64,000 bases of DNA from Alphaproteobacteria bacterium (GTDB lineage: Bacteria; Pseudomonadota; Alphaproteobacteria; SMXS01). The position numbers and the translations under genes are program-made. The DNA lies in the NCBI GenBank assembly GCA_028284945.1, contig JANQQJ010000005.1, positions 1-64,000 of the forward strand, written 5' to 3'. Under the pieces are notes generated by a model. That model was not told the origin of the DNA, did not search any database, and saw nothing but the letters and a program-made list of their open reading frames with translations. Positions 15,626 through 34,862 of this stretch are shown in pieces (position 1 is the stretch's first letter; every line of letters begins with the position of its first letter).

Positions 15626-15713
15626 GTCATTGCGAGGAGGCATGCCGACGAAGCAATCCAGAAATCGAGGCTGTTGAGAAACCTCTGGATTGCTTCGCTA
15701 TGCTCGCAATGAC
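15626..15713. repeat. Palindromic intergenic repeat, family A copy 1
   Basis: GTCATTGCGAG at the left (15626-15636) is the inverted repeat of CTCGCAATGAC at the right (15703-15713). Inside, GAAGCAATCCAG and CTGGATTGCTTC pair again. Two more copies occur at 31519-31612 and 32887-32987. It carries no ORF and sits between the acyl-CoA dehydrogenase and the solute-binding protein gene. Confidence 0.85.
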
Positions 15714-15761
15714 GCTAGTATCGGTGTCGATCTGGATGCACAGCACTGAAGGGAGATTGAA

Positions 15762-17012: not shown

Positions 17013-17906
17013 ATGGCAGACGAAGAAGTTCCCGATTATCACGATACCAGCAGCCGGGCGACGCCGACCGGTGCGACCTATTGGCAGGACGATAAGAAGA
17101 AGGTTCTGTTGGTCACCCGCGGTCACCCATTCGCGCGCGATCCCTTCTACCAGATCTTCGAGGCCAACGAGCACATCGAATATGCGGCGGTAGAACACCC
17201 GGCGGCGCAGTATATGTTTAACCCGGAGTTCGCCAGCAACTTCGATTGTTATGTCATGTATGACATGCCGGGCATTCAGTTCAATCCGGGCGGTCCACCC
17301 AGTTTTATTGACCCGCCGCAGTTCTACAAAGACGGTGTCATGGCGATGCTGGAAGCCGGCTTCCCGCTGGTGATTATGCATCACACCTGTGCGGCGTGGC
17401 CCGCCTGGCCCGAATGGTCGGAAATAGTCGGTAGCCACTTCCTTTATAAGCCGATGAAGTCGCGCGGAATCGACAAGCCGGATTCAGGATACATCATCGA
17501 TGTGCCGCACACCGTATCGCCGGCCATCGACCACCCCATCACGGCGGGCATCGAGCCGTTCGAGCTGGTGGATGAGGTCTATCTGGCCGAAGTGTTCGAA
17601 GATTCGGTCACACCGCTGTTCACCAGCAATTACGAGTTCACCAAGGAAAATTTCTATTCGGCGGATCTGGCGCTGAAGGGCCAGATGAACTCGAATGAGG
17701 GTTGGGAGCACGATCCGGGCTCGAATCTCGTGGGCTGGATCAAGACCTATAAGAACAGCCCGATTGTCTATCTGCAGTTTGGCGACGGCCCAGCCACCTA
17801 TGGCAACCCGATCTTCCGCAAAATTCTACAGCAGGCGATCGACTGGGCGTGCTCAGATGAAGCCAAGGCCTGGGCGCAGGAGCAGGCAAAGCAAGCCGCC
17901 GAGTAG
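17013..17906 (+). CDS. ThuA domain protein
   Basis: The 297-residue protein has a ThuA-like glutamine-amidotransferase-type fold. KVLLVTRGHPFARDPFYQIF is the first strand and helix, DCYVMYDMPG the second, and VIMHHTCAAWPAWPEWSEIVG the ThuA signature. ITAGIEPFELVDEVYL lies in the C-terminal half. ThuA proteins were first linked to trehalose and sugar catabolism; the reaction is not settled for most members. The ribosome-binding site is AAGGGGGAGACC. A second, divergent ThuA paralogue lies at 30743-31504. Confidence 0.85.
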   Translation: MADEEVPDYHDTSSRATPTGATYWQDDKKKVLLVTRGHPFARDPFYQIFEANEHIEYAAVEHPAAQYMFNPEFASNFDCYVMYDMPGIQFNPGGPPSFIDPPQFYKDGVMAMLEAGFPLVIMHHTCAAWPAWPEWSEIVGSHFLYKPMKSRGIDKPDSGYIIDVPHTVSPAIDHPITAGIEPFELVDEVYLAEVFEDSVTPLFTSNYEFTKENFYSADLALKGQMNSNEGWEHDPGSNLVGWIKTYKNSPIVYLQFGDGPATYGNPIFRKILQQAIDWACSDEAKAWAQEQAKQAAE

Positions 17907-22652: not shown

Positions 22653-22961
22653 TCAGAACTTCTCGGCACGGACGACTTCAACCGTCGACACATAGATGAT
22701 GCAGGAATAGCGTTCGAGCTGGCTGGACAGCCGCTCGATCAGCGCCTCCGCGCGGCTTTCGCCAATGATAATTTTGATAAGCACCTTCTGTTGGGTGCCG
22801 GTGAGCTGGTCTTCGCGCCATGACCCGTCATGCCCCCGGCCTCCGACGCTGCGAAACACGGTGTAGCCTGTGGCGCCAATCTGATCGATCTCGCGGGTAA
22901 TGCGGTTGACCAATGGCGCATCGACAATAATCTCGATTTTTTTTCGGGTATGGGTCTCCAT
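22653..22961 (-). CDS. sbtB: PII-like regulator SbtB
   Basis: The 102-residue ferredoxin-like fold has the SbtB hallmark GATGYTVF, preceded by a beta-strand/helix (KIEIIVDAPLVNRITREIDQ), a T-loop region rich in Gly/Arg (SVGGRGHDGSW), and the final strand IIYVSTVEVVRAEKF. In cyanobacteria SbtB binds adenine nucleotides and cAMP and controls the bicarbonate transporter SbtA. There is no C-terminal Cys-containing loop. It begins one base after the sbtA stop, so the two are co-translated. Confidence 0.85.
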   Translation of the reverse strand: METHTRKKIEIIVDAPLVNRITREIDQIGATGYTVFRSVGGRGHDGSWREDQLTGTQQKVLIKIIIGESRAEALIERLSSQLERYSCIIYVSTVEVVRAEKF

Positions 22962-22962
22962 A

Positions 22963-23949
22963 TCACCCTCCGGTCAGATACTGCGCTACGGCAAGATAGA
23001 GTGGAATACCGACGGTTAGATTAAACGGGAACGTAATGGCGAGCGACAGGGTCAGATAGACGGCCGGATTCGCCTCCGGCAGTGCAAGCCGCATCGCGGC
23101 GGGAACAGCGATGTAAGATGCACTGGCTGCCAACACCGCCATCAGCGTGACGCCACCGGTGCTCAATCCCACCAACAGGCCAGCGGCCGTACCAAGCGCG
23201 GCACCGATCAGCGGCATGAGTAGACCGAACCCGATCAGGCCGGGTGAGATGACCCGCGCTTCGCGCAGCCGCGACGCGGCAATCAGCCCCATATCAAGCA
23301 GGAAGAAACACAAGATGCCCTTGAACGGCGCATCGATGAAGGGGGCGACAGTCTCCATGCCTTTTGTGCCGGTCGCCAAGCCGATCACAAATGCGCCGAT
23401 TAGCAGAACGACACTGCCGTTGAGGAACACCTCCCGCAGCAATTCGTTTTGCCCGTTCGAGGTGTTGTCTGATCGATCGAGATAACGGCTGGCCAGCCAA
23501 AGGCCCGAAATAATGGCCGGCGTTTCCATCAAGGCCATGACGGCGACCAGATAGCCTTCATAGGTGACGCCCATCAGGCTGAGGAATTCTGCCCCGCTGA
23601 CAAAGGTCACGATGCTGATCGAGCCGTAATGGGCAGAAACAGCGGCTGCATCGACGCCGCTCAACTTCGACATCCGCTTCAACAGCGTAAAGGCGACGAA
23701 CGGCATCAGAAAGCTTAGGGCAATCCCGGCGATGGCCGTCAAAACCAGGGTCGCGTCGATGCCATGCGCGGCCACCCCAGCGCCGCCTTTGAACCCGATG
23801 GCCAGCATCAGGTATAGCGACAGGGCCTTGGCGATGGCTTCGGGAATGCTTAGGTCCGAGCGCGCAAGGGCCGCGACAAACCCCAAGGCGAAAAACAACA
23901 CCATGGGTGACAGCAGATTGCTGAGGGCAATGGAAAACAGGTCCGACAT
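22963..23949 (-). CDS. sbtA: SbtA-type sodium-dependent bicarbonate transporter
   Basis: The 328-residue inner-membrane protein has about ten hydrophobic segments and the SbtA family (DUF897) pattern: LLSPMVLFFALGF, LYLMLAIGFKGG, SAHYGSISIVTF, EGYLVAVMALMETPAI, and GASASYIA-like ASASYIAVPAAMR. Family members import bicarbonate with sodium and are best known from the cyanobacterial CO2-concentrating mechanism; other anions are possible in heterotrophs. It is paired with sbtB just downstream. No carbonic anhydrase or RuBisCO gene is in view. Confidence 0.85.
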   Translation of the reverse strand: MSDLFSIALSNLLSPMVLFFALGFVAALARSDLSIPEAIAKALSLYLMLAIGFKGGAGVAAHGIDATLVLTAIAGIALSFLMPFVAFTLLKRMSKLSGVDAAAVSAHYGSISIVTFVSGAEFLSLMGVTYEGYLVAVMALMETPAIISGLWLASRYLDRSDNTSNGQNELLREVFLNGSVVLLIGAFVIGLATGTKGMETVAPFIDAPFKGILCFFLLDMGLIAASRLREARVISPGLIGFGLLMPLIGAALGTAAGLLVGLSTGGVTLMAVLAASASYIAVPAAMRLALPEANPAVYLTLSLAITFPFNLTVGIPLYLAVAQYLTGG

Positions 23950-24087: not shown

Positions 24088-25656
24088 ATGCCGATATACG
24101 ACTTTGGAACCCTGGCCGATACCATCCGTCATTGGGCGGGCGAAAGGCCGGATACAACGGCGACGGTTTTTGAAGGCCGCACGACCAGCTATGGCGAGTT
24201 CGACCGCCACGCCAGTCAGATCGCGAACGGCATCATTGCCGCGGGCGTCAAACCGCAATCCCGGATCGGCTATTTGGGCAAGAATTCCGACCACTATTTT
24301 GAACTGTTGTTCGGCGCTGCCAAAGCCAATGCAGTCGTGGTGGGGATCAACTGGCGTCTGGCGCCGCCCGAAGTCGACTACATCGCCAATGACGCCGAAG
24401 TCGAAATGCTCTTCGTCGATCAGGAGTTCTTCGGCCTCGTTGAGCAAATTAAGGACAGCCTGAAAGGGGTGAAGGTCTTTATCTCCATGTCCGGACGGCA
24501 TGATGGGTGGGCGGACTTCGTCGCCTGGCGTGACAATCAGGACGACACGGATCCCATGGTGCCGGTCGCCAGCGACGACGTCTGTGTACAGATGTACACG
24601 TCCGGCACGACAGGCAGGCCGAAGGGTGTTCAGATGACCAATTTCGGCTTCTTCTCTCTTAGAGAGTCAGAGAGCCGGGCAGGGGATTGGGCGCGGTTCG
24701 CCGAAGACGATGTCATCATGGTGCCGATGCCCGTGTTCCATATCGGCGGAACAGGCTGGGGCTTCTACGGCTTCTACCACGGGGTCACCGTCGTGATTCT
24801 GGCACAGGCCGATCCCGGCCTGATCATCGAAGCCATCCAGGACCACCGGGTCACCAAGGTCTTTGTCGTACCTGCGGTGCTTCAATTCATGCTGCAGCAC
24901 GAGGCCTCGAAGAACGCCGACTTCTCGCATGTGCGTGTTGTGCTCTATGGCGCTTCGCCGATCCCGGAAGATACGCTGGTCAAGGCGATGGAGACGTTCA
25001 AATGTCCGTTCGTTCAGATGTACGGTATGACCGAGACCAACGGCACCATCGTCTACTTACCGTTTGAAGAGCATAAGATCGGCTCGGAGCGCCTGAAGTC
25101 TGCCGGCAAACCCTACGACGTGGTTGAGGCCCGGATCGTCGATACCGAGGGCAACGAAGTGCCAACCCGCGAGGTCGGCGAAATCTGGCTGAAGACGCCC
25201 TCCATTATGAAGGGATACTGGAACCTGCCCGAGGCCACGGCCGAGGCGACGGAAGGAGGCTGGTATCATTCCGGGGATGCCGGCTATGTCGATGAAGAAG
25301 GCTATATCTATGTCTTCGACCGGGTGAAGGACATGATCGTCTCCGGCGGTGAGAACATTTATCCGGCCGAGGTCGAAAGCGCGCTATCACGCCATGATGC
25401 GGTCGCGGATATTGCCGTTATTGGCGTGCCGTCAGAACGCTGGGGCGAAGAGGTTAAGGCCATCATCGTCAAAGCGCCGGGAAGTGATATCACTGGGGAC
25501 GACGTGATCGAATTCGCCCGGACCCAGATCGCGGGATACAAGTGCCCGAAATCCGTCGATTTTGTCGACGAACTGCCGCGTAATCCGTCGGGCAAATTGC
25601 TTAAAAAAGATCTGCGCGAACCCTATTGGGAGGGAGTCGACCGCCGGGTGGGTTAA
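24088..25656 (+). CDS. AMP-forming fatty-acid/aryl-CoA ligase
   Basis: The 522-residue ANL-superfamily enzyme has the P-loop YTSGTTGRPKGV, the A5 motif QMYGMTETNG, the hinge/A8 motif YHSGDAGYVDEEGYIYVFDR..KD and the A10 lysine in PSGKLLKKDLR. It activates a carboxylic acid to its CoA thioester via an acyl-AMP, starting degradation of a fatty or ring-derived acid. The ribosome-binding site is GGGGAGCGCAATTC. A small membrane protein gene follows. Confidence 0.93.
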   Translation: MPIYDFGTLADTIRHWAGERPDTTATVFEGRTTSYGEFDRHASQIANGIIAAGVKPQSRIGYLGKNSDHYFELLFGAAKANAVVVGINWRLAPPEVDYIANDAEVEMLFVDQEFFGLVEQIKDSLKGVKVFISMSGRHDGWADFVAWRDNQDDTDPMVPVASDDVCVQMYTSGTTGRPKGVQMTNFGFFSLRESESRAGDWARFAEDDVIMVPMPVFHIGGTGWGFYGFYHGVTVVILAQADPGLIIEAIQDHRVTKVFVVPAVLQFMLQHEASKNADFSHVRVVLYGASPIPEDTLVKAMETFKCPFVQMYGMTETNGTIVYLPFEEHKIGSERLKSAGKPYDVVEARIVDTEGNEVPTREVGEIWLKTPSIMKGYWNLPEATAEATEGGWYHSGDAGYVDEEGYIYVFDRVKDMIVSGGENIYPAEVESALSRHDAVADIAVIGVPSERWGEEVKAIIVKAPGSDITGDDVIEFARTQIAGYKCPKSVDFVDELPRNPSGKLLKKDLREPYWEGVDRRVG

Positions 25657-26667: not shown

Positions 26668-27525
26668 ATGAAAAAAGAATTCGAGACGGCGACCTATGAG
26701 CTGGTGGCGCCGCATATCGTCAAGATCATGCAGAACCGGCCCGATGCCCGGAACGCGCAGAATGCACAACTGACCTATGATCTGAACGAATGCTTCGACA
26801 TGGCGGCGCAGGATGAAGACGTCAAAGTCGTGCTGTTTGGCGGTGAGGGGCCGCATTTTTCTGCCGGTCATGACCTGCGTGGCTTCGGCCCGAAGTACCC
26901 GCAGAAGGATTTCGATCTGGTTGGTACATGGGGCATGAGCCGCGAAGGCGGTGTTCACAGCCGGTATTCCTTTGAGCAGGAAGTCTTTCTGGGTATGTGC
27001 CGCCGCTGGCGGGACTTTCCCAAACCGACCATTGCGATGGTGCAGGGCAAATGCATCGCCGGCGGGCTAATGCTCGCCTGGGTTTGCGACATCATCGTTG
27101 CCAGTGATGATGCGACCTTTGTCGATCCGGTGGTTGCCATGGGCGTCTGTGGCGTGGAGTTCTTCAACCATCCCTATGAACTGGGCGTGCGCAAGGCCAA
27201 GGAACTGCTGTTCACATCCGATTGGTGGGACGCTGAAGAGGCGCACCGGTTGGGTATGGTCAATCAGGTGGTGGCCCGCGACGACCTGGAAAGCTATAGC
27301 CTGGAAATGGCCAAACGGATCGCCGACAAGCCCACCTTCGCGTTGAAGCTGACCAAGCAGGCGGTCAATACGGCTCAGGACAATATGGGACAGCGCAGCA
27401 CAATGGATACGGTGCTGGCGTTGCATCACATGTGCCACGCGCATAATTCTGAGATAGAGATGCGTGCCGTGCGCGCAGAAGGAGTGCCGGAGAAGTTCCG
27501 GGAAGGCATTAAGGCAGCCGAGTAG
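26668..27525 (+). CDS. Enoyl-CoA hydratase/isomerase family protein
   Basis: This 285-residue crotonase has the oxyanion-hole motifs GPHFSAGHDLRGF and QGKCIAGGLMLAWVCDIIVAS. An insert of about 30 residues (FGPKYPQKDFDLVGTWGMSR) follows the first motif, as in a subgroup often found with steroid or terpenoid genes. The C-terminal LKLTKQAVN is conserved. It starts the co-directional run of Rieske genes, 43 bases before the first oxygenase. Confidence 0.87.
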   Translation: MKKEFETATYELVAPHIVKIMQNRPDARNAQNAQLTYDLNECFDMAAQDEDVKVVLFGGEGPHFSAGHDLRGFGPKYPQKDFDLVGTWGMSREGGVHSRYSFEQEVFLGMCRRWRDFPKPTIAMVQGKCIAGGLMLAWVCDIIVASDDATFVDPVVAMGVCGVEFFNHPYELGVRKAKELLFTSDWWDAEEAHRLGMVNQVVARDDLESYSLEMAKRIADKPTFALKLTKQAVNTAQDNMGQRSTMDTVLALHHMCHAHNSEIEMRAVRAEGVPEKFREGIKAAE

Positions 27526-27568
27526 GCTGTTGATCTAAAAGGGTTAAGGGAAGAACAAGGAGACAACG

Positions 27569-28873
27569 ATGGTTGCGATCACCCGCGTTAAGGAAAGCGT
27601 CAAGACGCCCGCAGAGAAGGCGCCCGAACCCAATATGGGATCGGAGATTATCCCGAAAGAGCGCTATATCTCGGAAGATTTCATGAAGCTCGAATGGGAG
27701 CGCATGTGGTCCAAGGTCTGGCTGATCGGCTGCCGCGAGGAAGAAATCCCTGAAGTCGGTGATTATGTGACAACCGAAATCGGTAATGAATCGCTGCTGA
27801 TCGTGCGCGGCGAGGATATGGTGCCGCGGGTGTTCTACAATGTCTGTAACCACCGTGGGAACCAGGTGAAATTCGACGAATGCGGTAACTCCAAGACGCT
27901 GCAATGCGCGTATCACTTCTGGGAATATGCGCTCGACGGCACCCTGATCAACGTCCCGGACGAAGAGGATTTCACCCAGGGATGCCCGAAGGATAAACTC
28001 AGCCTTAAGGAAATCAATTCAGGGACTTGGGCCGGTTTTGTGTGGTTCAACCTGAATCCGGACGCCGAACCGCTGATGGATTTCCTGGGTGTCTTGCCGG
28101 AGCATCTCGACCCCTATCACTTCGAGACCATGGCCATGACGATGAACGTCACCATGGAGTGGGACTGCAACTGGAAAACCTCGGTCGATGCGTTCAACGA
28201 GGTCTATCACGTTCAGTGCATTCACCCTGAGCTATCCTACACCATCGACGATGTCGATGTTCAGATCGATCTCTATGACAAGCACAATCGCTACCTGGTG
28301 CCGTTCAAGACCTATAGCCCCCGTTTGGGTGAAGAACTGGACGAGGTACCCGAAGGCCTGAAGCAGGAACTGCTTCAGATCGGTATGGATCCAAAGGACT
28401 TCCACGGCCGGGTCGATGAAATCCGCCGCGCGGTTCAGGTCTATAAGCGGGAAAATCAGGACAAGCTGGGCTTTGACTATTCCGACTTTAACGATGACCA
28501 ATTGTCTGACGATTATCACTACATGATGTTCCCGAACATCACGATGAACATCCATGCCGAAAGCATGATGATGTTCCGTCAGCGGCCGCATGCGACCGAT
28601 CCGAACAAGATGCTGTTCGATGTTCAGATGTTCGTGCAGATGCCCGAGGGCGCGGAGAAGCCGCCGCTTCCGGATCATGAGCAGCACAAGCACGGCGAAC
28701 GGTCGCTGGGTCTTGTGCTCGATCAGGACTCCGTCAATTTGCCGCATGTGCAGAAGGGCATGTCGTCGGAGGCGTATCAGGGCCTGTGGATCAGCAGTCA
28801 GGAGCGTCGAATCCGCCACATGCACAAGACGTTGATGGACTATATCAACGGCGAGCATGCGAATGATGCCTAG
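27569..28873 (+). CDS. Rieske non-haem iron oxygenase, catalytic (alpha) subunit, copy 1
   Basis: This is a 434-residue oxygenase. The Rieske [2Fe-2S] ligands are C93, H95, C113 and H116 (CNH, then CAYH). The mononuclear iron site has H214 and H219 in EVYHVQCIH, with D387 in LDQDSVN as the likely third ligand. The bridging position that is Asp205 in naphthalene dioxygenase is Glu (E211), as in carnitine monooxygenase CntA. Probably a homotrimer without a beta subunit, since none is encoded here. Substrate unknown. A close paralogue follows 141 bases downstream. Confidence 0.93.
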   Translation: MVAITRVKESVKTPAEKAPEPNMGSEIIPKERYISEDFMKLEWERMWSKVWLIGCREEEIPEVGDYVTTEIGNESLLIVRGEDMVPRVFYNVCNHRGNQVKFDECGNSKTLQCAYHFWEYALDGTLINVPDEEDFTQGCPKDKLSLKEINSGTWAGFVWFNLNPDAEPLMDFLGVLPEHLDPYHFETMAMTMNVTMEWDCNWKTSVDAFNEVYHVQCIHPELSYTIDDVDVQIDLYDKHNRYLVPFKTYSPRLGEELDEVPEGLKQELLQIGMDPKDFHGRVDEIRRAVQVYKRENQDKLGFDYSDFNDDQLSDDYHYMMFPNITMNIHAESMMMFRQRPHATDPNKMLFDVQMFVQMPEGAEKPPLPDHEQHKHGERSLGLVLDQDSVNLPHVQKGMSSEAYQGLWISSQERRIRHMHKTLMDYINGEHANDA

Positions 28874-28891
28874 GGTTTCTTAAACCTTGCC

Positions 28892-28948
28892 GGCGCGGCT
28901 TGCCGCGCCACATGAATACTGAACGGTCGGCTTTCACGCCGGCCGTTC
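28892..28948 (+). terminator. Double hairpin between the two Rieske oxygenase genes
   Basis: GGCGCGGC (28892-28899) pairs with GCCGCGCC (28902-28909) around a 2-base loop. GAACGGTCGGC (28921-28931) then pairs with GCCGGCCGTTC (28938-28948) around TTTCAC with one G-T pair. The run after it (TAATGTTAGAC) is only weakly T-rich, so it may be an attenuator or processing site rather than a full terminator. Confidence 0.5.
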
Positions 28949-29014
28949 TAATGTTAGACAGTGTGCTCTGAGAGCGACCAGAGCGACCGCCCCAATCTGA
29001 GCAGGAGATCGATA

Positions 29015-30316
29015 ATGGCAATTACCCGGGTCAAAGAAAGTGTCATGACACCGGCAGAAAAGGGGCCCGAGCCCGAATTGGGTTCGGAGTTGATTCCGAA
29101 AGAACGCTATACGTCGCCCGAATTCATGCAGCTCGAATGGGACAAGGTCTGGAGCAAAAGCTGGTTGCTCGGTTGCCGTGAGGAAGAAATCCCCGAGGTC
29201 GGCGACTATGTCACGACCGAGATCGGCAATGAGTCACTGTTGATTGTCCGTGGCGAGGACATGAAGGCGCGGGTTTTCTACAATGTCTGTAATCACCGCG
29301 GTAATCAGGTGAAGTTCGACAAGGGCGGTAATTCCAAGACCCTGCAATGCGCCTATCACTTCTGGGAATATGATCTGACCGGTACGCTGGTGAACGTGCC
29401 TGATGAGGAAGATTTCACCCAAGGGTGCCCGAAGGACAAGCTCAGCCTTAAAGAAATCCCCTCGGGAACCTGGGGTGGCTTCGTGTTCTTCAACCTCGAC
29501 CAGAATGCGGGCCCGATGGAAGACTTCCTGGGCATCGTCCCTGAACACCTGGACGCGTATCACTTCGAGAAGATGCGCATGACCATGGATGTCACCATCG
29601 AATGGGACTGTAACTGGAAAACCTCAGTCGATGCATTCAACGAGGTCTATCACGTTCAGTGCATTCATCCTGAACTGCTCTATGACAATGATGACGTCAA
29701 CGTGCAGATTGACCTGTATGAACGCCACAATCGCTACCTGGTGCCGTTTCATACGGTCAGCCCGCGGGTGGACGAACAGCCCGAGGAAGTGCCACCGATC
29801 ATCGCTTATCAGATGCAGGCGATCGGCATGGACCCCGAAGAATTTACCGGCCGGGTGCCTGAAATCCGCCTCGCCATGCAGAAATACAAGCGCGAGAACC
29901 AGGAGCAGCTGGGCTTCGACTATAGCGATCTGAACGACGACCAACTGGTCGACGATTACCACTACTATATCTATCCGAATCTGACGCTGAATACCTTTGC
30001 AGACCGGATGATGCTGTTTCGTCAGCGGCCGCATGAGACGGATCCGAACAAGATGTATTATGACGTCAAGATGTTCACCATGATCCCCAAGGGCCAGCCG
30101 GTTCCTGAGTTGCCTGACCACAATCAGGTCAAGCACGGTGAGATCTCGCTTGGTCTCGTGCTTGATCAGGATTCAGTCAATCTGCCGCATGTTCAGAAGG
30201 GGATGAATTCTGAAGCCTATGAAGGTTTGTGGATCAGCCATCAGGAACGCCGTATCCGTCACATGCACAAAACGCTGATGGATGACATCAATGGCGAGCA
30301 CGCCAACGACGCTTAG
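29015..30316 (+). CDS. Rieske non-haem iron oxygenase, catalytic (alpha) subunit, copy 2
   Basis: The ATG at 29015 follows GCAGGAGATCGATA; the longer frame from 28961 is not used. The 433-residue product matches copy 1 along its whole length, including the shared N-terminus (AITRVKESV, TPAEK, GSE.IPKERY). All metal ligands are kept: C92, H94, C112, H115, the bridging E210, H213 and H218. Differences cluster in the C-terminal substrate-pocket half (for example LLYDNDDVN and YYIYPNLTLNTFADRM). The pair is a tandem duplication with probable divergence in substrate range. Confidence 0.93.
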   Translation: MAITRVKESVMTPAEKGPEPELGSELIPKERYTSPEFMQLEWDKVWSKSWLLGCREEEIPEVGDYVTTEIGNESLLIVRGEDMKARVFYNVCNHRGNQVKFDKGGNSKTLQCAYHFWEYDLTGTLVNVPDEEDFTQGCPKDKLSLKEIPSGTWGGFVFFNLDQNAGPMEDFLGIVPEHLDAYHFEKMRMTMDVTIEWDCNWKTSVDAFNEVYHVQCIHPELLYDNDDVNVQIDLYERHNRYLVPFHTVSPRVDEQPEEVPPIIAYQMQAIGMDPEEFTGRVPEIRLAMQKYKRENQEQLGFDYSDLNDDQLVDDYHYYIYPNLTLNTFADRMMLFRQRPHETDPNKMYYDVKMFTMIPKGQPVPELPDHNQVKHGEISLGLVLDQDSVNLPHVQKGMNSEAYEGLWISHQERRIRHMHKTLMDDINGEHANDA

Positions 30317-30324
30317 GCTCTTCA

Positions 30325-30714
30325 ATGGCTGACATACCTTTCGTTTTGGTTGCCAAGGTTGAGGATGTCCCCTCGGCCGGGATGAAGTGCTTCGACGTCG
30401 AAGGGCGGGGCGTCCTTGTCATGAACACCGGCGAGGGGGCCTATAAAGCCGTCGAGAACGCCTGTAGCCATGAGAAAAAGCCGCTTGAAGGCGGGCGTGT
30501 GCGGGGTGGCAAAAAAATCGTCTGTCCGCATCACGGCGCCAATTTCGACCTCGACACCGGTAAGGCGCTCAGCCCGCCTGCGGTGCTGCCGATAACGGTA
30601 TTTCCGACTAAGGTCGAGGACGGCAGTATCTATGTTCAACTGGTTGAGGCGATGAAGCCGCCAGCCAACCCATTTGCCGTTCCCGGTGCCGGGGGGATGC
30701 CGGGCGGTCTATAA
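30325..30714 (+). CDS. Rieske-type [2Fe-2S] ferredoxin
   Basis: This 129-residue protein binds one Rieske cluster through C47, H49, C67 and H70 (ACSHE, then CPHHGANFDLDTG). It is expected to carry electrons to the adjacent oxygenases. A C-terminal tail of about 25 residues is rich in Pro and Gly (ANPFAVPGAGGMPGG), beyond the usual NDO-ferredoxin end. It starts 8 bases after the second oxygenase stop. No dedicated reductase gene is next to it. Confidence 0.92.
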   Translation: MADIPFVLVAKVEDVPSAGMKCFDVEGRGVLVMNTGEGAYKAVENACSHEKKPLEGGRVRGGKKIVCPHHGANFDLDTGKALSPPAVLPITVFPTKVEDGSIYVQLVEAMKPPANPFAVPGAGGMPGGL

Positions 30715-30742
30715 ACGAGACTCTCAGGGGAGGGACACATCT

Positions 30743-31504
30743 ATGGATAAGAAACCGCCGTTTCGCTTCTATCTGGTCGCGGCAGGCAAGTATCACGACA
30801 TTGACCATGCGCGCCTCGAGCTGCTCAAGCTGCTCCAGGAAGACGAGCGTATTCGCGTTCAAGTGGGTGACGATTACAGCAATATCGAAGCCATTCAGGC
30901 TTGCGATGTGCTGGTCACCTATACCTGCGACGTAACGCCCACCGATGAGCAGATTGAGGGCATTCACCAATGGCTGTCAAATGGTGGCAAGTGGTTTGCG
31001 CTGCACGGTACCAACTCAATCCTGCGCTTCCGGGACGACGGCAAGGTCGACAGTCCCGATCTGGCGCCGAAATTCATGGAGATGCTGGGCAGTCAGTTCA
31101 TCGCCCATCCACCCCTTATGCCGTACAAAGTAGAAGTCAGCCAGGGGGCGGATAGTCACCCGCTGCTCGAGGGGATCGAGGGCTTTGAAGTCGAACAGGA
31201 AGAGCTTTATTGCTCACACTATCATGGCGAGCTTACGCCTTTGCTGGAAACCCGCTGGTCGGGAAAATGTGAAGGCTTTGTCGAGGAAGACTGGACCGAC
31301 AGTGATCGTCACCTGGTGATGTACACGCGCAAGCATGGTGACGGCGAGGTGCTGTACAACACCCTCGGACACTACCGCAGCAAGTATGACATGGTGCCCA
31401 TGGTCGACGAGTATCCGGTCATTGAGCGCGGTGCCTGGACCCAGCCGGTCTATTACGAACTGCTTCGCCGCGGCATCAAATACTGCCTGGGTGAGTTGAA
31501 TTAG
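30743..31504 (+). CDS. ThuA domain protein, second copy
   Basis: The ATG at 30743 (preceded by AGGGGAGGGACACATCT) gives 253 residues with the ThuA fold. The features are FYLVAAGKYHDIDHARLELL, CDVLVTYTCDVTP, GKWFALHGTNSILRF, FEVEQEELYCSHYHGEL, and the typical LGHYRSKYD. It is co-directional with the Rieske ferredoxin, 28 bases downstream, so probably in the same operon. What it does alongside oxygenases is not known. Confidence 0.85.
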   Translation: MDKKPPFRFYLVAAGKYHDIDHARLELLKLLQEDERIRVQVGDDYSNIEAIQACDVLVTYTCDVTPTDEQIEGIHQWLSNGGKWFALHGTNSILRFRDDGKVDSPDLAPKFMEMLGSQFIAHPPLMPYKVEVSQGADSHPLLEGIEGFEVEQEELYCSHYHGELTPLLETRWSGKCEGFVEEDWTDSDRHLVMYTRKHGDGEVLYNTLGHYRSKYDMVPMVDEYPVIERGAWTQPVYYELLRRGIKYCLGELN

Positions 31505-31518
31505 CAGATACTTTCCGA

Positions 31519-31612
31519 CGTCATTGCGAGCAACGCGAAGCAATCCACAACTGACCCCACGGGCCGCGACTCTGGATTGCTTCGTCGCCCGATGGAGCTC
31601 CTCGCAATGACG
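31519..31612. repeat. Palindromic intergenic repeat, family A copy 2
   Basis: CGTCATTGCGAG (31519-31530) is a perfect inverted repeat of CTCGCAATGACG (31601-31612), with the inner pair GAAGCAATCCA/TGGATTGCTTC. It shares termini and inner arms with copies at 15626 and 32887. Its right terminus contains the ATG at 31607, used as the likely start of the following kinase gene. Confidence 0.9.
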
Positions 31613-32407
31613 GTGTTCAACTCCCTAAACAAGTGGATACGTGCCTGGTCACTCACGCCAGCTGACGAGCCGATTGAGACTGTTACCAGCCGGCTTGTGA
31701 AAGTCGATGCAGACGGCAAGAGTGCCTTCTTGAAGGTCCACAAGCCGGAAAGTGACGAGCACGAGACCGGGGCTTACCTGTCGTGGCGCGACGGCGAAGG
31801 GGCTGTGCGTGCCCTCAAAGCGACCCGGGACGCCGTGCTGCTTGAATTTGTACCGGGGCCGCCACTGTCCGATCTGGTCCGTGATGGCCGCGATGAGGAA
31901 GCAGCAGCCATTCTCGCGAGCGTCGTATCCAAACTCCATGTCACCAGGCCTGATCCGCCGGAAACGTTACGGCGACTGGAGGACCGGTTCGCGCCTCTGT
32001 TAGCGCTTACCGAAGGGCCCGACGGGGAGATTGCTGCCCTTACTGCCGATCTATTGGGGACCACTCGGCAACACATCCCGCTGCACGGCGATATTCACCA
32101 CGACAATATCCTGCATTCCGACCGAGGTTGGCTCGCAATCGATCCGAAGGGATTGATCGGTGATCCCCATTACGATCTGGCCAACACGCTCTTCAACCCC
32201 ATCGATATGCCCGAACTCGTCTGGAGTGCGGGGCGGCTGGGCAATCTGGTGAGTGTGCTGGCTGAGCACACGGGTCATGACCGCCGGCGGATTCTCGAAT
32301 GGGCGTTGTGCCATGCTCGTGTGTCGGCCATCTGGCTGGAGCAGGATGGCATGGACCCCCAGCCTGCGCTCAATACGCTGGCTCCCATTTTAGCGGAAAT
32401 CGGCTAG
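31607..32407 (+). CDS. Aminoglycoside/streptomycin 6-kinase-like phosphotransferase (APH(6)/hydroxyurea kinase family)
   Basis: This is a 266-residue APH-fold kinase if it starts at 31607. LHGDIHHDNILH is the Brenner motif with catalytic Asp and Asn. WLAIDPKGLIGDPHYDLANTLFNP carries the metal-binding Asp of the PF04655 family. Characterised relatives phosphorylate streptomycin or hydroxyurea, but chromosomal members may have other substrates. The start codon lies inside the right arm of a palindromic repeat, with no obvious ribosome-binding site beyond the GGAGCTCC of that repeat. An in-frame ATG at 31592 and TTG at 31577 are also inside it. Confidence 0.82.
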   Translation: MTVFNSLNKWIRAWSLTPADEPIETVTSRLVKVDADGKSAFLKVHKPESDEHETGAYLSWRDGEGAVRALKATRDAVLLEFVPGPPLSDLVRDGRDEEAAAILASVVSKLHVTRPDPPETLRRLEDRFAPLLALTEGPDGEIAALTADLLGTTRQHIPLHGDIHHDNILHSDRGWLAIDPKGLIGDPHYDLANTLFNPIDMPELVWSAGRLGNLVSVLAEHTGHDRRRILEWALCHARVSAIWLEQDGMDPQPALNTLAPILAEIG

Positions 32408-32429: not shown

Positions 32430-32798
32430 TTAACCCGCCATCTGGCGTTGGAAATCTCCCAGGTCGAAATAGTCCTTCCACTCGACGATTTCGCCGTTCT
32501 TGACCTTGAAAATACCCATCAGCGGAATGGCAATTTTCTTGCCACCTTTGAACGTGAAGCCGTCGACCCGCTCGGTCATGACAATGTCGCCATTTTCGGC
32601 GATGGCGGTGGTTTCCCAGTTGATATCTTCCAGGTCGCCCATGCCTTTCAGCATCGCGCGGGCGGCTTCACGCCCATTGATCGGCTCCATCGGGATGTTG
32701 TGATAGAAAACGTCCTCGGCCAGCATATCGCAGGCCTTGTCGATATCGTTTTCGTTCCAGGCATCCAGAAAAGCTTGGACGATTTGCATGCTGCTCAT
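32430..32798 (-). CDS. Limonene-1,2-epoxide hydrolase-like protein
   Basis: The 122-residue SnoaL/NTF2-like protein has the complete catalytic set of limonene-1,2-epoxide hydrolase: Tyr32 and Asn34 (FYHNIPM), Arg77 and Asp79 (TERVDGF), and Asp109 (WKDYFDL). These line up with Tyr53, Asn55, Arg99, Asp101 and Asp132 of the Rhodococcus enzyme, recalled from memory. It would add water across an epoxide of a terpenoid or similar substrate. It is divergent from the following ADH, with a palindromic repeat between. Confidence 0.87.
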   Translation of the reverse strand: MSSMQIVQAFLDAWNENDIDKACDMLAEDVFYHNIPMEPINGREAARAMLKGMGDLEDINWETTAIAENGDIVMTERVDGFTFKGGKKIAIPLMGIFKVKNGEIVEWKDYFDLGDFQRQMAG

Positions 32799-32886: not shown

Positions 32887-32987
32887 CGTCATTGCGAGCG
32901 CAGCGAAGCAATCCATGCCGCTTAAGTTTTCGCATTTAGCAGATGAATGGATTGCCGCGTCGACCTCGCGGTCTCCTCGCAATGACG
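32887..32987. repeat. Palindromic intergenic repeat, family A copy 3
   Basis: CGTCATTGCGAG (32887-32898) and CTCGCAATGACG (32976-32987) are perfect inverted repeats. Inner arms GAAGCAATCCAT and ATGGATTGC pair imperfectly. It is the same element family as at 15626 and 31519. Confidence 0.87.
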
Positions 32988-33003: not shown

Positions 33004-34104
33004 CTAATCTAAGGGCATCCTTAGTACCGCCTTAACGATTTTTCCGTTGGCGTTATCCACGTCGGCCTGATTGATATCGTCCAGATCATAGAAGCTGACC
33101 AACTTGTCGAACGGGAACAAACCGTCCATGTAGAGGTCCAGCAGGTGAGGGATGAAGTCGTCGACAATGGCTTCCCCTTCAATCATGCCAACAAGGCGCA
33201 AGCCCTTATTGAGCAGCGCCCCCATATCAACAGCAGCTTCCGCGCCGGGTGCAGGGACACCGACCTGGCCGAGTGTCCCTCGCGGTGCCAGACAGTCAAC
33301 CGCCTGTTTGAATACAGCGGCCGACCCGGTGCATTCCAGCGCATAGAGCGCCCCGGCGCCGGTGATGCCCTGGATCTCCGCCACCACATCAGAACTGCCG
33401 GGGTTGATGACATGGGTTGCCCCCATGTCTTTCGCGATGTCCAGCCGGCTGTCCATCAGATCGACAGCGATAATCGGCCGGCAGCCGATTAGCTTGGCAG
33501 CCATGATGGCGGCGAGCCCAACAGACCCAACGCCAAAGATGGTTATGGCCTCGTCGGGCAGGGGCTCCAGCCCGTTCATCACCGAGCCCGCGCCGGTCTG
33601 AATGCCACAGCCCAGCGGCCCTAGCAGTTCCAGCGGCGCATCCTTGCGAACCTTGACCGTGTTCACCTCTGTCGCGAGGGCGTGGGTAGCAAAGGACGAT
33701 TGGGTAAAGAAATGTGCGAACAGGGGCTGGCCGTTTTGGGTGATGGTGGGCGTGCCGTCCGGGCGGAACCCGCCAATGTTCTGCGGAATGAAGCTATGAC
33801 AATAGAACGGCGCTTCATTGTCGCAACTTGGGCAGGCGCCACAAGACCCATAGGACAGAACAACGTGATCGCCCGGTGCAACTTTGGTAACGGCACTGCC
33901 TACCGCTTCAACGATGCCCGCGCCTTCATGGCCCAATACGGCGGGCAACGGTAACGCGGCGTCTCGAAGCACGATATCCGTGTGGCACAGGCCAGTTGCG
34001 ACGAGCTTGACCAGAATTTCGTCGTCCCTAGGCGTATCCAGATCGACCTCTTCAAGTGTAAATGGCTTGCCCGGCCCGTGCGCGACCGCCGCTTTGATCC
34101 TCAT
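33004..34104 (-). CDS. Zinc-dependent alcohol dehydrogenase, aryl/allylic-alcohol type
   Basis: This 366-residue MDR has the catalytic zinc ligands C40, H59 and E60 (GLCHTD, GHEGAG). Structural-zinc cysteines are C88, C91, C94 and C102 (CGACPSC...YC). The NAD loop reads FGVGSVGLAAIMAAK, with Asp in AVDLMDSR pointing to NAD. It resembles benzyl/geraniol-alcohol dehydrogenases and should oxidise a primary or allylic alcohol. Its start overlaps the stop of the upstream SDR gene by four bases (ATGA). Confidence 0.9.
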   Translation of the reverse strand: MRIKAAVAHGPGKPFTLEEVDLDTPRDDEILVKLVATGLCHTDIVLRDAALPLPAVLGHEGAGIVEAVGSAVTKVAPGDHVVLSYGSCGACPSCDNEAPFYCHSFIPQNIGGFRPDGTPTITQNGQPLFAHFFTQSSFATHALATEVNTVKVRKDAPLELLGPLGCGIQTGAGSVMNGLEPLPDEAITIFGVGSVGLAAIMAAKLIGCRPIIAVDLMDSRLDIAKDMGATHVINPGSSDVVAEIQGITGAGALYALECTGSAAVFKQAVDCLAPRGTLGQVGVPAPGAEAAVDMGALLNKGLRLVGMIEGEAIVDDFIPHLLDLYMDGLFPFDKLVSFYDLDDINQADVDNANGKIVKAVLRMPLD

Positions 34105-34862
34105 GCCAACAGGCCGCCATCCACCGGCACGGCTGCACCGGTGGTGAAAGACGAATCATCAGAGGCCAAGAACAAGACGGCTTTGGCGACCTCATCTGGC
34201 TGGCCAACACGGTTCATCGGGTGGGCAGACCCAAAAAAGGCCAGCGCTTCCTCCCGATCCGGCATTGCCGCTAGATAGGATTCAAGCATGGGCGTATGAA
34301 TGGCCCCCGGCTGGATCGCATTGACCCGAATGGGGTCGCCCTGTTCAGCGCAGTACTTGCCAATCGCTTTTGCCATGCCGAGGACACCGGCCTTGCTGGC
34401 CGCATAGGCCACATGATTGGACATCGGCGAGGACGCTTGCGTTGAGGAAATAAACACAATGGAAGAGGGCTTGCCGCTGGCTTTCATTGCCGGCAGTGCG
34501 TTCTTGCACCCCAGCATTGAACCTTTGAGATTGATATCGATGTGCTTCTGCCACAGGTCGAGGTCCATGTCGTCGATGGGCGTGGGCATGCTAATGCCTG
34601 CGCTCGTTACCAACACTGTCAATTCCCCAAATACGTCTTGGGTCGCGCTGATTGCCTCTGCCCAGGAGTCGTCGCTGGATACGTCAAGCGTCACAAAAGC
34701 CGCGCCCTCACCGATATCGTCTGCAACCTGGCGTCCGCGGTCGGCATCAATATCAGCCACGACGACCTTGGCCCCTTCACTATGAAGCTTGCGGGCAATC
34801 GCTTCACCCAAGCCGCTAGCAGCACCAGTGACCAGCGCAACTTTTCCATCAACACGTCCCAT
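34101..34862 (-). CDS. Short-chain dehydrogenase/reductase
   Basis: This classical SDR of 253 residues has TGAASGLGEAIA as the cofactor loop, an Asp after beta-2 (VADIDADR) indicating NAD(H), SAG, the catalytic Ser in FISSTQASS, and YAASK. It is translationally coupled to the zinc ADH gene. Upstream it faces the P450 gene divergently across 130 bases. The substrate is probably a secondary alcohol in the same pathway. Confidence 0.9.
   Translation of the reverse strand: MGRVDGKVALVTGAASGLGEAIARKLHSEGAKVVVADIDADRGRQVADDIGEGAAFVTLDVSSDDSWAEAISATQDVFGELTVLVTSAGISMPTPIDDMDLDLWQKHIDINLKGSMLGCKNALPAMKASGKPSSIVFISSTQASSPMSNHVAYAASKAGVLGMAKAIGKYCAEQGDPIRVNAIQPGAIHTPMLESYLAAMPDREEALAFFGSAHPMNRVGQPDEVAKAVLFLASDDSSFTTGAAVPVDGGLLA

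Follow-up and report, generated by a model that had tools for sequence, protein, structure and literature searches.

We analysed a 64,000-nucleotide stretch of an alphaproteobacterial contig (JANQQJ010000005.1 in assembly GCA_028284945.1), here called the window, from a source genome (G000) of 3.56 Mb that is 99% complete. Our subject is a block of five genes at positions 26668-31504, all on the plus strand, which open reading frames and Pfam matches identify as a crotonase, two Rieske oxygenase (RO) alpha subunits, a Rieske ferredoxin, and a ThuA-family protein; RO, SDR, E1 alpha, E1 beta, and E2 serve as gene labels throughout. Pfam agrees on all five identities with the original prediction, which had been made from the letters of the window alone:

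26668-27525, plus strand: crotonase-fold enzyme of subfamily PRK08290 (NF006140); PF00378, E 8e-39
27569-28873, plus strand: RO alpha copy 1 (RO1); PF00848, 7e-27; PF00355, 2e-15
29015-30316, plus strand: RO alpha copy 2 (RO2); PF00848, 1e-24; PF00355, 2e-17
30325-30714, plus strand: Rieske-type ferredoxin, putative electron donor; PF00355, 4e-17
30743-31504, plus strand: ThuA-family protein; PF06283, 1e-14, 55.7 bits against a cut-off of 33.4

The genes are co-directional, as had been claimed, and the gaps between them in order along the block are 43, 141, 8, and 28 nt; the short spacing also claimed thus holds (8-43 nt) save for the 141-nt gap between RO1 and RO2, and this layout makes a single transcript for the five genes likely, though not assured.

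RO1 and RO2 are 77% identical, and in both the Rieske and Ring_hydroxyl_A domains score over cut-off. Residues C92, H94, C112, H115, E210, H213, H218, and D386 are invariant in 14 ROs, and from family knowledge we take them to be the CxH/CxxH cluster ligands, the His-His-Asp iron ligands, and a bridging carboxylate; the two alpha subunits are predicted to be oxygenases on the strength of these domains and conserved motif residues. Their nearest solved structure is the carnitine monooxygenase CntA (E 6e-32, over residues about 25-235 only), and they score 137.6 and 144.7 bits with the GbcA model NF058607, below its cut-off of 670. The nearest solved relatives of the ferredoxin are the CarAc, NDO, and toluene dioxygenase ferredoxins, and those of the crotonase, which scores 395.8 bits with NF006140 against a cut-off of 280, are 3ome and 3t3w.

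The AlphaFold model of ThuA (pLDDT 95.3) has a ThuA-like fold, matching 4e5v, 4jqs, and 1t0b at a TM of about 0.6, all of them entries titled putative or ThuA-like with no named function; a sequence search of the PDB with ThuA found no relative. Residues H18, R24, Y60, H88, H122, E154, H210, R212, and D216 do not vary among 23 ThuA sequences, and together these polar residues look like an active site; H88 is the His of an LHGTN motif, at what we presume to be the position of the catalytic Cys of glutamine amidotransferases. As far as we could find, ThuA proteins are widespread but have no established enzymatic reaction.

An order of genes unique to this genome would have spoken against the original prediction, and this is not what we observe. 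Comparison with nine searchable relatives in the bacterial family (G001-G009), which belong to two other genera, reveals that i) ThuA is present in all nine (58-71% identical) and has a Rieske ferredoxin and RO next to it wherever the contig reaches that far (eight relatives), the ThuA of G009 sitting at a contig edge; ii) the crotonase adjoins the ROs in 7/7 relatives' loci where it would be visible; iii) the locus holds one RO copy in G001 and G003, two in G000 and G002, and three in G004-G007; iv) every relative that can be checked preserves the order crotonase-RO(1-3)-Rieske ferredoxin-ThuA, which thus holds in three genera; and v) in the tree RO2 falls among the RO copies that adjoin the ferredoxin in the relatives (100/94). 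Of the close family RO copies listed, about half sit away from ThuA, so the clade has also spread independently of it.

A ThuA scan of named genomes found relatives in the PS1/OCS116 clade, the Rhodobiaceae, the Sphingomonadales, and gammaproteobacterial metagenome-assembled genomes. We compared 29 ThuA neighborhoods (plus or minus 8 kb) from outside the family with 19 arbitrarily chosen windows, most of them taken from these genomes, the controls being few and unmatched for catabolic islands. An SDR lies near ThuA in 29/29 loci (controls 3/19), any RO in 20/29 (3/19), an RO with 45% identity or more in 14/29 (0/19), a Rieske ferredoxin in 14/29 (0/19), and E1 alpha/beta in 19/29 (0/19); distant ThuA paralogs have an RO nearby in 6/7 loci. 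The recurrent wider core therefore consists of RO, SDR, and ThuA, to which a Rieske ferredoxin and acetoin-dehydrogenase-like E1 alpha/beta-E2 are often added. The crotonase is found near RO-ThuA in 8/9 family loci but 0/29 non-family loci; the crotonase-first order originally described stands for the source family and fails elsewhere, and because its linkage is limited to that family we rejected the crotonase as a core member.

The reverse test, starting from the RO, gave the same association. The RO clade occurs in 13 of 385 alphaproteobacterial genomes, all 13 of them among the 18 that have the ThuA subfamily, and six of the eight non-family ROs of the clade have coordinates no more than about 5 kb from ThuA, the exceptions being an RO 38 kb from ThuA in G158 and one far off on the same contig in G277. 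The ROs form one supported clade (98/96), in which 34 of 37 tree rows lie within 8 kb of ThuA, the rows having come mostly from ThuA loci. The statistical values take genomes as independent, although they are not. The suggestion that ThuA is a regular partner of Rieske oxygenases is borne out by these counts, and as the original prediction had supposed, we found no described pathway for the gene set in the open-access literature, nor among open-access full texts any paper linking ThuA to a Rieske oxygenase.

Cultured bacteria carry the same set. Annotated plasmid records of Paracoccus pantotrophus hold SDR-RO-MaoC-ThuA with a second ThuA close by; in Terrarubrum flagellatum SDR-RO-MaoC-ThuA is followed by E1 alpha, E1 beta, and E2, and Niveispirillum has the same parts; in Sphingobium RAC03 the order is ThuA, SDR, SDR, RO, E1 alpha, E1 beta, E2. 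RO and ThuA share 1-4 nt of reading frame on plasmids of N. aromaticivorans DSM 12444 (SARO_RS18605 and SARO_RS18610), N. humi, N. capsulatum, N. resinovorum HR1a, Novosphingobium sp. ES2-1, and Croceicoccus marinus. The ThuA-adjacent ROs of several cultured carriers are 31-39% identical to RO2 and belong to other RO branches; the pairing therefore extends beyond a single RO clade.

The source genome has 48 PF00848 matches. As had been noted, the block contains neither a beta subunit nor a ferredoxin reductase: the best beta-subunit match in the genome is a fragment below cut-off, which led us to reject an alpha-beta aromatic dioxygenase, and the only PF14759 ferredoxin reductase lies outside the window, at C23:54325-55536. 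Since the genome encodes a reductase elsewhere, its lack in the operon is not a property of the pathway. The reductase has as neighbors a [2Fe-2S] ferredoxin, a VOC protein, two SDRs, E1 alpha, E1 beta, and E2, and G002 shares the reductase-SDR-E1-E2 arrangement; because the reductase lies beside the SDR, E1, and E2 genes, the pathway seems in the source family to be divided between two loci that stand together in other families. The E1 alpha proteins fall short of the NCBI cut-offs for pyruvate dehydrogenase E1 alpha, and a broad E1 beta subfamily model accepts the E1 beta proteins; that the complex is acetoin-dehydrogenase-like is our reading, helped by the aco gene names in Sphingobium TomTYG65. 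The expansion of RO alpha subunits is itself unusual, with 27-58 per genome of 2.2-4.1 Mb (G000-G009); five of these genomes were tested for PF14759, and each has one such reductase.

We favor the interpretation that the block supplies the oxygenases of an aerobic catabolic pathway: hydroxylation by the RO would be followed by oxidation to a ketone by the SDR, and ThuA would convert this ketone before CoA-dependent cleavage. We give this interpretation a probability of roughly 0.55. For the order of steps, the class of substrate, and the ThuA reaction, we infer the following: electrons from NADH would pass through the shared ferredoxin reductase at C23 to the Rieske ferredoxin and then to the two alpha-only ROs; these would hydroxylate a hydrophobic substrate, probably lipid-like and probably alicyclic or terpenoid/steroid-like; the SDR, to judge by its constant linkage to ThuA, would oxidize the new alcohol to a ketone; the keto or hydroxy-keto compound so formed would be the substrate of ThuA, which would most likely be a lyase, C-C hydrolase, or isomerase working without a cofactor; and the acetoin-dehydrogenase-like E1/E2 together with acyl-CoA ligase, crotonase, acyl-CoA dehydrogenases, and aldolase would complete the cleavage. 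Of the two products first proposed, glycosidic or keto, the keto product agrees with the SDR found within 8 kb of ThuA at every non-family locus, whereas the glycosidic one finds no glycosidase or ThuB alongside. More tentatively, and with less confidence than we place in the pathway as a whole, ThuA could be a new kind of enzyme in oxygenase pathways, a cofactor-free C-C hydrolase, lyase, or isomerase that takes the keto product of RO and SDR and feeds the acetoin-dehydrogenase-like complex.

Several observations weigh against the catabolic pathway proposed here: the 141-nt hairpin spacer between RO1 and RO2 could split expression; the crotonase is absent from the wider core; genomes so rich in ROs make a chance neighborhood likelier, and the 19 controls are not matched for catabolic islands; and some Sphingobium (TomTYG64/65) and Variovorax plasmids hold SDR-ThuA with no annotated RO nearby, so that ThuA may belong to the SDR step and not to the RO. 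On this last account ThuA and SDR would be a ketone-processing pair of many catabolic pathways and the RO merely a common companion, as might also be read from the SDR found within 8 kb in 29/29 non-family loci against 20/29 for the RO. We think this possible but rather doubtful: RO clade and ThuA subfamily occur together in 13/13 genomes, several strains have overlapping RO and ThuA frames, and in the source family ThuA follows the ferredoxin and has an SDR within 8 kb in only 1/9 loci.

Frame overlap also suggests coupled synthesis, as would suit an auxiliary or scaffold protein of the oxygenase (for stability, Fe-S, or product channeling) that is not a pathway enzyme, and the nearest solved ThuA-like structures are named merely putative or ThuA-like; yet the polar residues invariant in 23 sequences resemble an active site and some ThuA loci have no RO, and we judge this role improbable. 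Chance co-location in a catabolic island that gathers any oxidoreductases appears to us more improbable still: with 48 PF00848 ROs in the genome, ROs will often lie near other genes, but the orthologous order in three genera, its recurrence in further alphaproteobacterial families and gammaproteobacterial metagenome-assembled genomes, and the RO clade in 0/19 random windows all argue otherwise.

The block resembles several known systems in part. The carnitine and glycine-betaine monooxygenases CntA and GbcA, the best named or solved relatives, are likewise alpha-only ROs with Glu at the bridging position, and we take the Glu of CntA to be the same as that of the ROs here; but our ROs score far under the GbcA cut-off, are similar over residues about 25-235 only, and are accompanied by a Rieske ferredoxin in place of the CntB/GbcB-type reductase that partners CntA or GbcA. 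Three-component aromatic dioxygenases (naphthalene, biphenyl, carbazole) share the RO motif and have related Rieske ferredoxins, whereas the block lacks a beta subunit and an operon reductase and has ThuA and SDR partners. The rhizobial trehalose operon is thuEFGKAB, in which a dehydrogenase makes a keto intermediate; the ThuA family (PF06283) and, on our reading, a keto intermediate made by a dehydrogenase are common to both, but here they are set among oxygenase and CoA genes. Among the genes named by eye and Pfam in the flanking ORFs, part of which were searched, we saw no ThuB, sugar ABC transporter, or glycosidase beside ThuA, and a trehalose or glycoside role was rejected for that reason. 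The cholesterol side-chain system comprises a P450, paired acyl-CoA dehydrogenases, an OB-fold ChsH2 domain, and an SCP-x thiolase, and sphingomonad ThuA sits similarly amid a P450, two acyl-CoA dehydrogenases, an OB_ChsH2_C protein, and a lipid-transfer-type thiolase, although to our knowledge the established side-chain scheme does not include ThuA or E1/E2. A classical steroid pathway was rejected because KshA_C (PF19298), the sole 9,10-seco steroid marker tested, was found in 0/6 family genomes.

The window holds other features around the block, some of them kept with it:

17013-17906, plus strand: second ThuA-family protein; PF06283, model pLDDT 88.3
24088-25656, plus strand: acyl-CoA ligase, kept upstream across the family; PF00501, synteny
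28874-29014, plus strand: RO1-RO2 spacer with two GC hairpins, at 28892-28909 and 28921-28948; fold, inverted repeats
31519-31613, no strand assigned: palindromic repetitive element; hairpin z -3.8, arm with 12 exact genome copies
32430-32798, minus strand: limonene-1,2-epoxide-hydrolase family protein; PF07858, 81.7 bits against a cut-off of 24; 5aif, E 8e-33
34101-34862, minus strand: SDR, closest to the SDR adjoining ThuA in sphingomonads; PF13561
34990-38028, plus strand: P450, Zn-alcohol dehydrogenase, and HpcH/HpaI aldolase, kept in the family; synteny, Pfam

The limonene-epoxide-hydrolase family protein is kept beside ThuA in the family and also in some sphingomonads. The second ThuA is 23% identical to the first; in the PS1/OCS116 clade and in sphingomonads, homologs of the two sit close together. 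A DUF3604 protein lies in the OCS116 cluster (L051, 13936-15867) and also in the PS1-type relatives L054 and L113. Elsewhere in the window, an Sbt_1 Na+/bicarbonate transporter and a small ORF resembling its P-II-like partner (22653-23949, minus strand) stand within this heterotrophic catabolic region, and an APH(6)-like kinase (31577-32407, plus strand) scores far under resistance-gene cut-offs and was not seen in the conserved block.

The 141-nt spacer folds at -55.5 kcal/mol (z -3.2) and its hairpin is present in one copy within the window; an intrinsic terminator between RO1 and RO2 was rejected, the hairpins having no T-run after them and a terminator scan being negative there. In two genomes with two ROs the RO-RO spacers are 141 and about 205 nt and rich in GC hairpins, the spacer of the relative L068 (11393-11596) having GC inverted repeats too, and the one spacer checked in a genome with three ROs (L070) measures about 93 nt and lacks inverted repeats. 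The palindromic element probably marks the 3′ edge of the unit; its repeat arm CGTCATTGCGAGN4GCGAAGCAATCCA, with 12 exact copies in the genome, stands in the window at 15686-15714, 31519-31547, and 32887-32915.

On plasmids of tomatine-degrading Sphingobium TomTYG (L205, L188) ThuA lies directly 3′ of an SDR amid acyl-CoA genes with no annotated RO adjoining, and most ThuA copies of the TomTYG/TomMM plasmids are about 34% identical. We considered a link of ThuA to tomatine degradation and set it aside: the passages of PMC10653915 available to us give ThuA no role, and no annotated RO adjoins it in the two regions viewed.

The partnership of RO, SDR, ThuA, and acetoin-dehydrogenase-like genes points to an undescribed breakdown step for a probably lipid-like compound, and its presence in the genetically tractable Paracoccus pantotrophus and N. 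aromaticivorans (pNL2) makes function directly testable. If ThuA is indeed a C-C hydrolase, lyase, or isomerase, a widespread family would gain a function and a new route of ring or chain cleavage would come into view; knowing what ThuA does would also help explain why genomes of the source family carry 27-58 oxygenases each.

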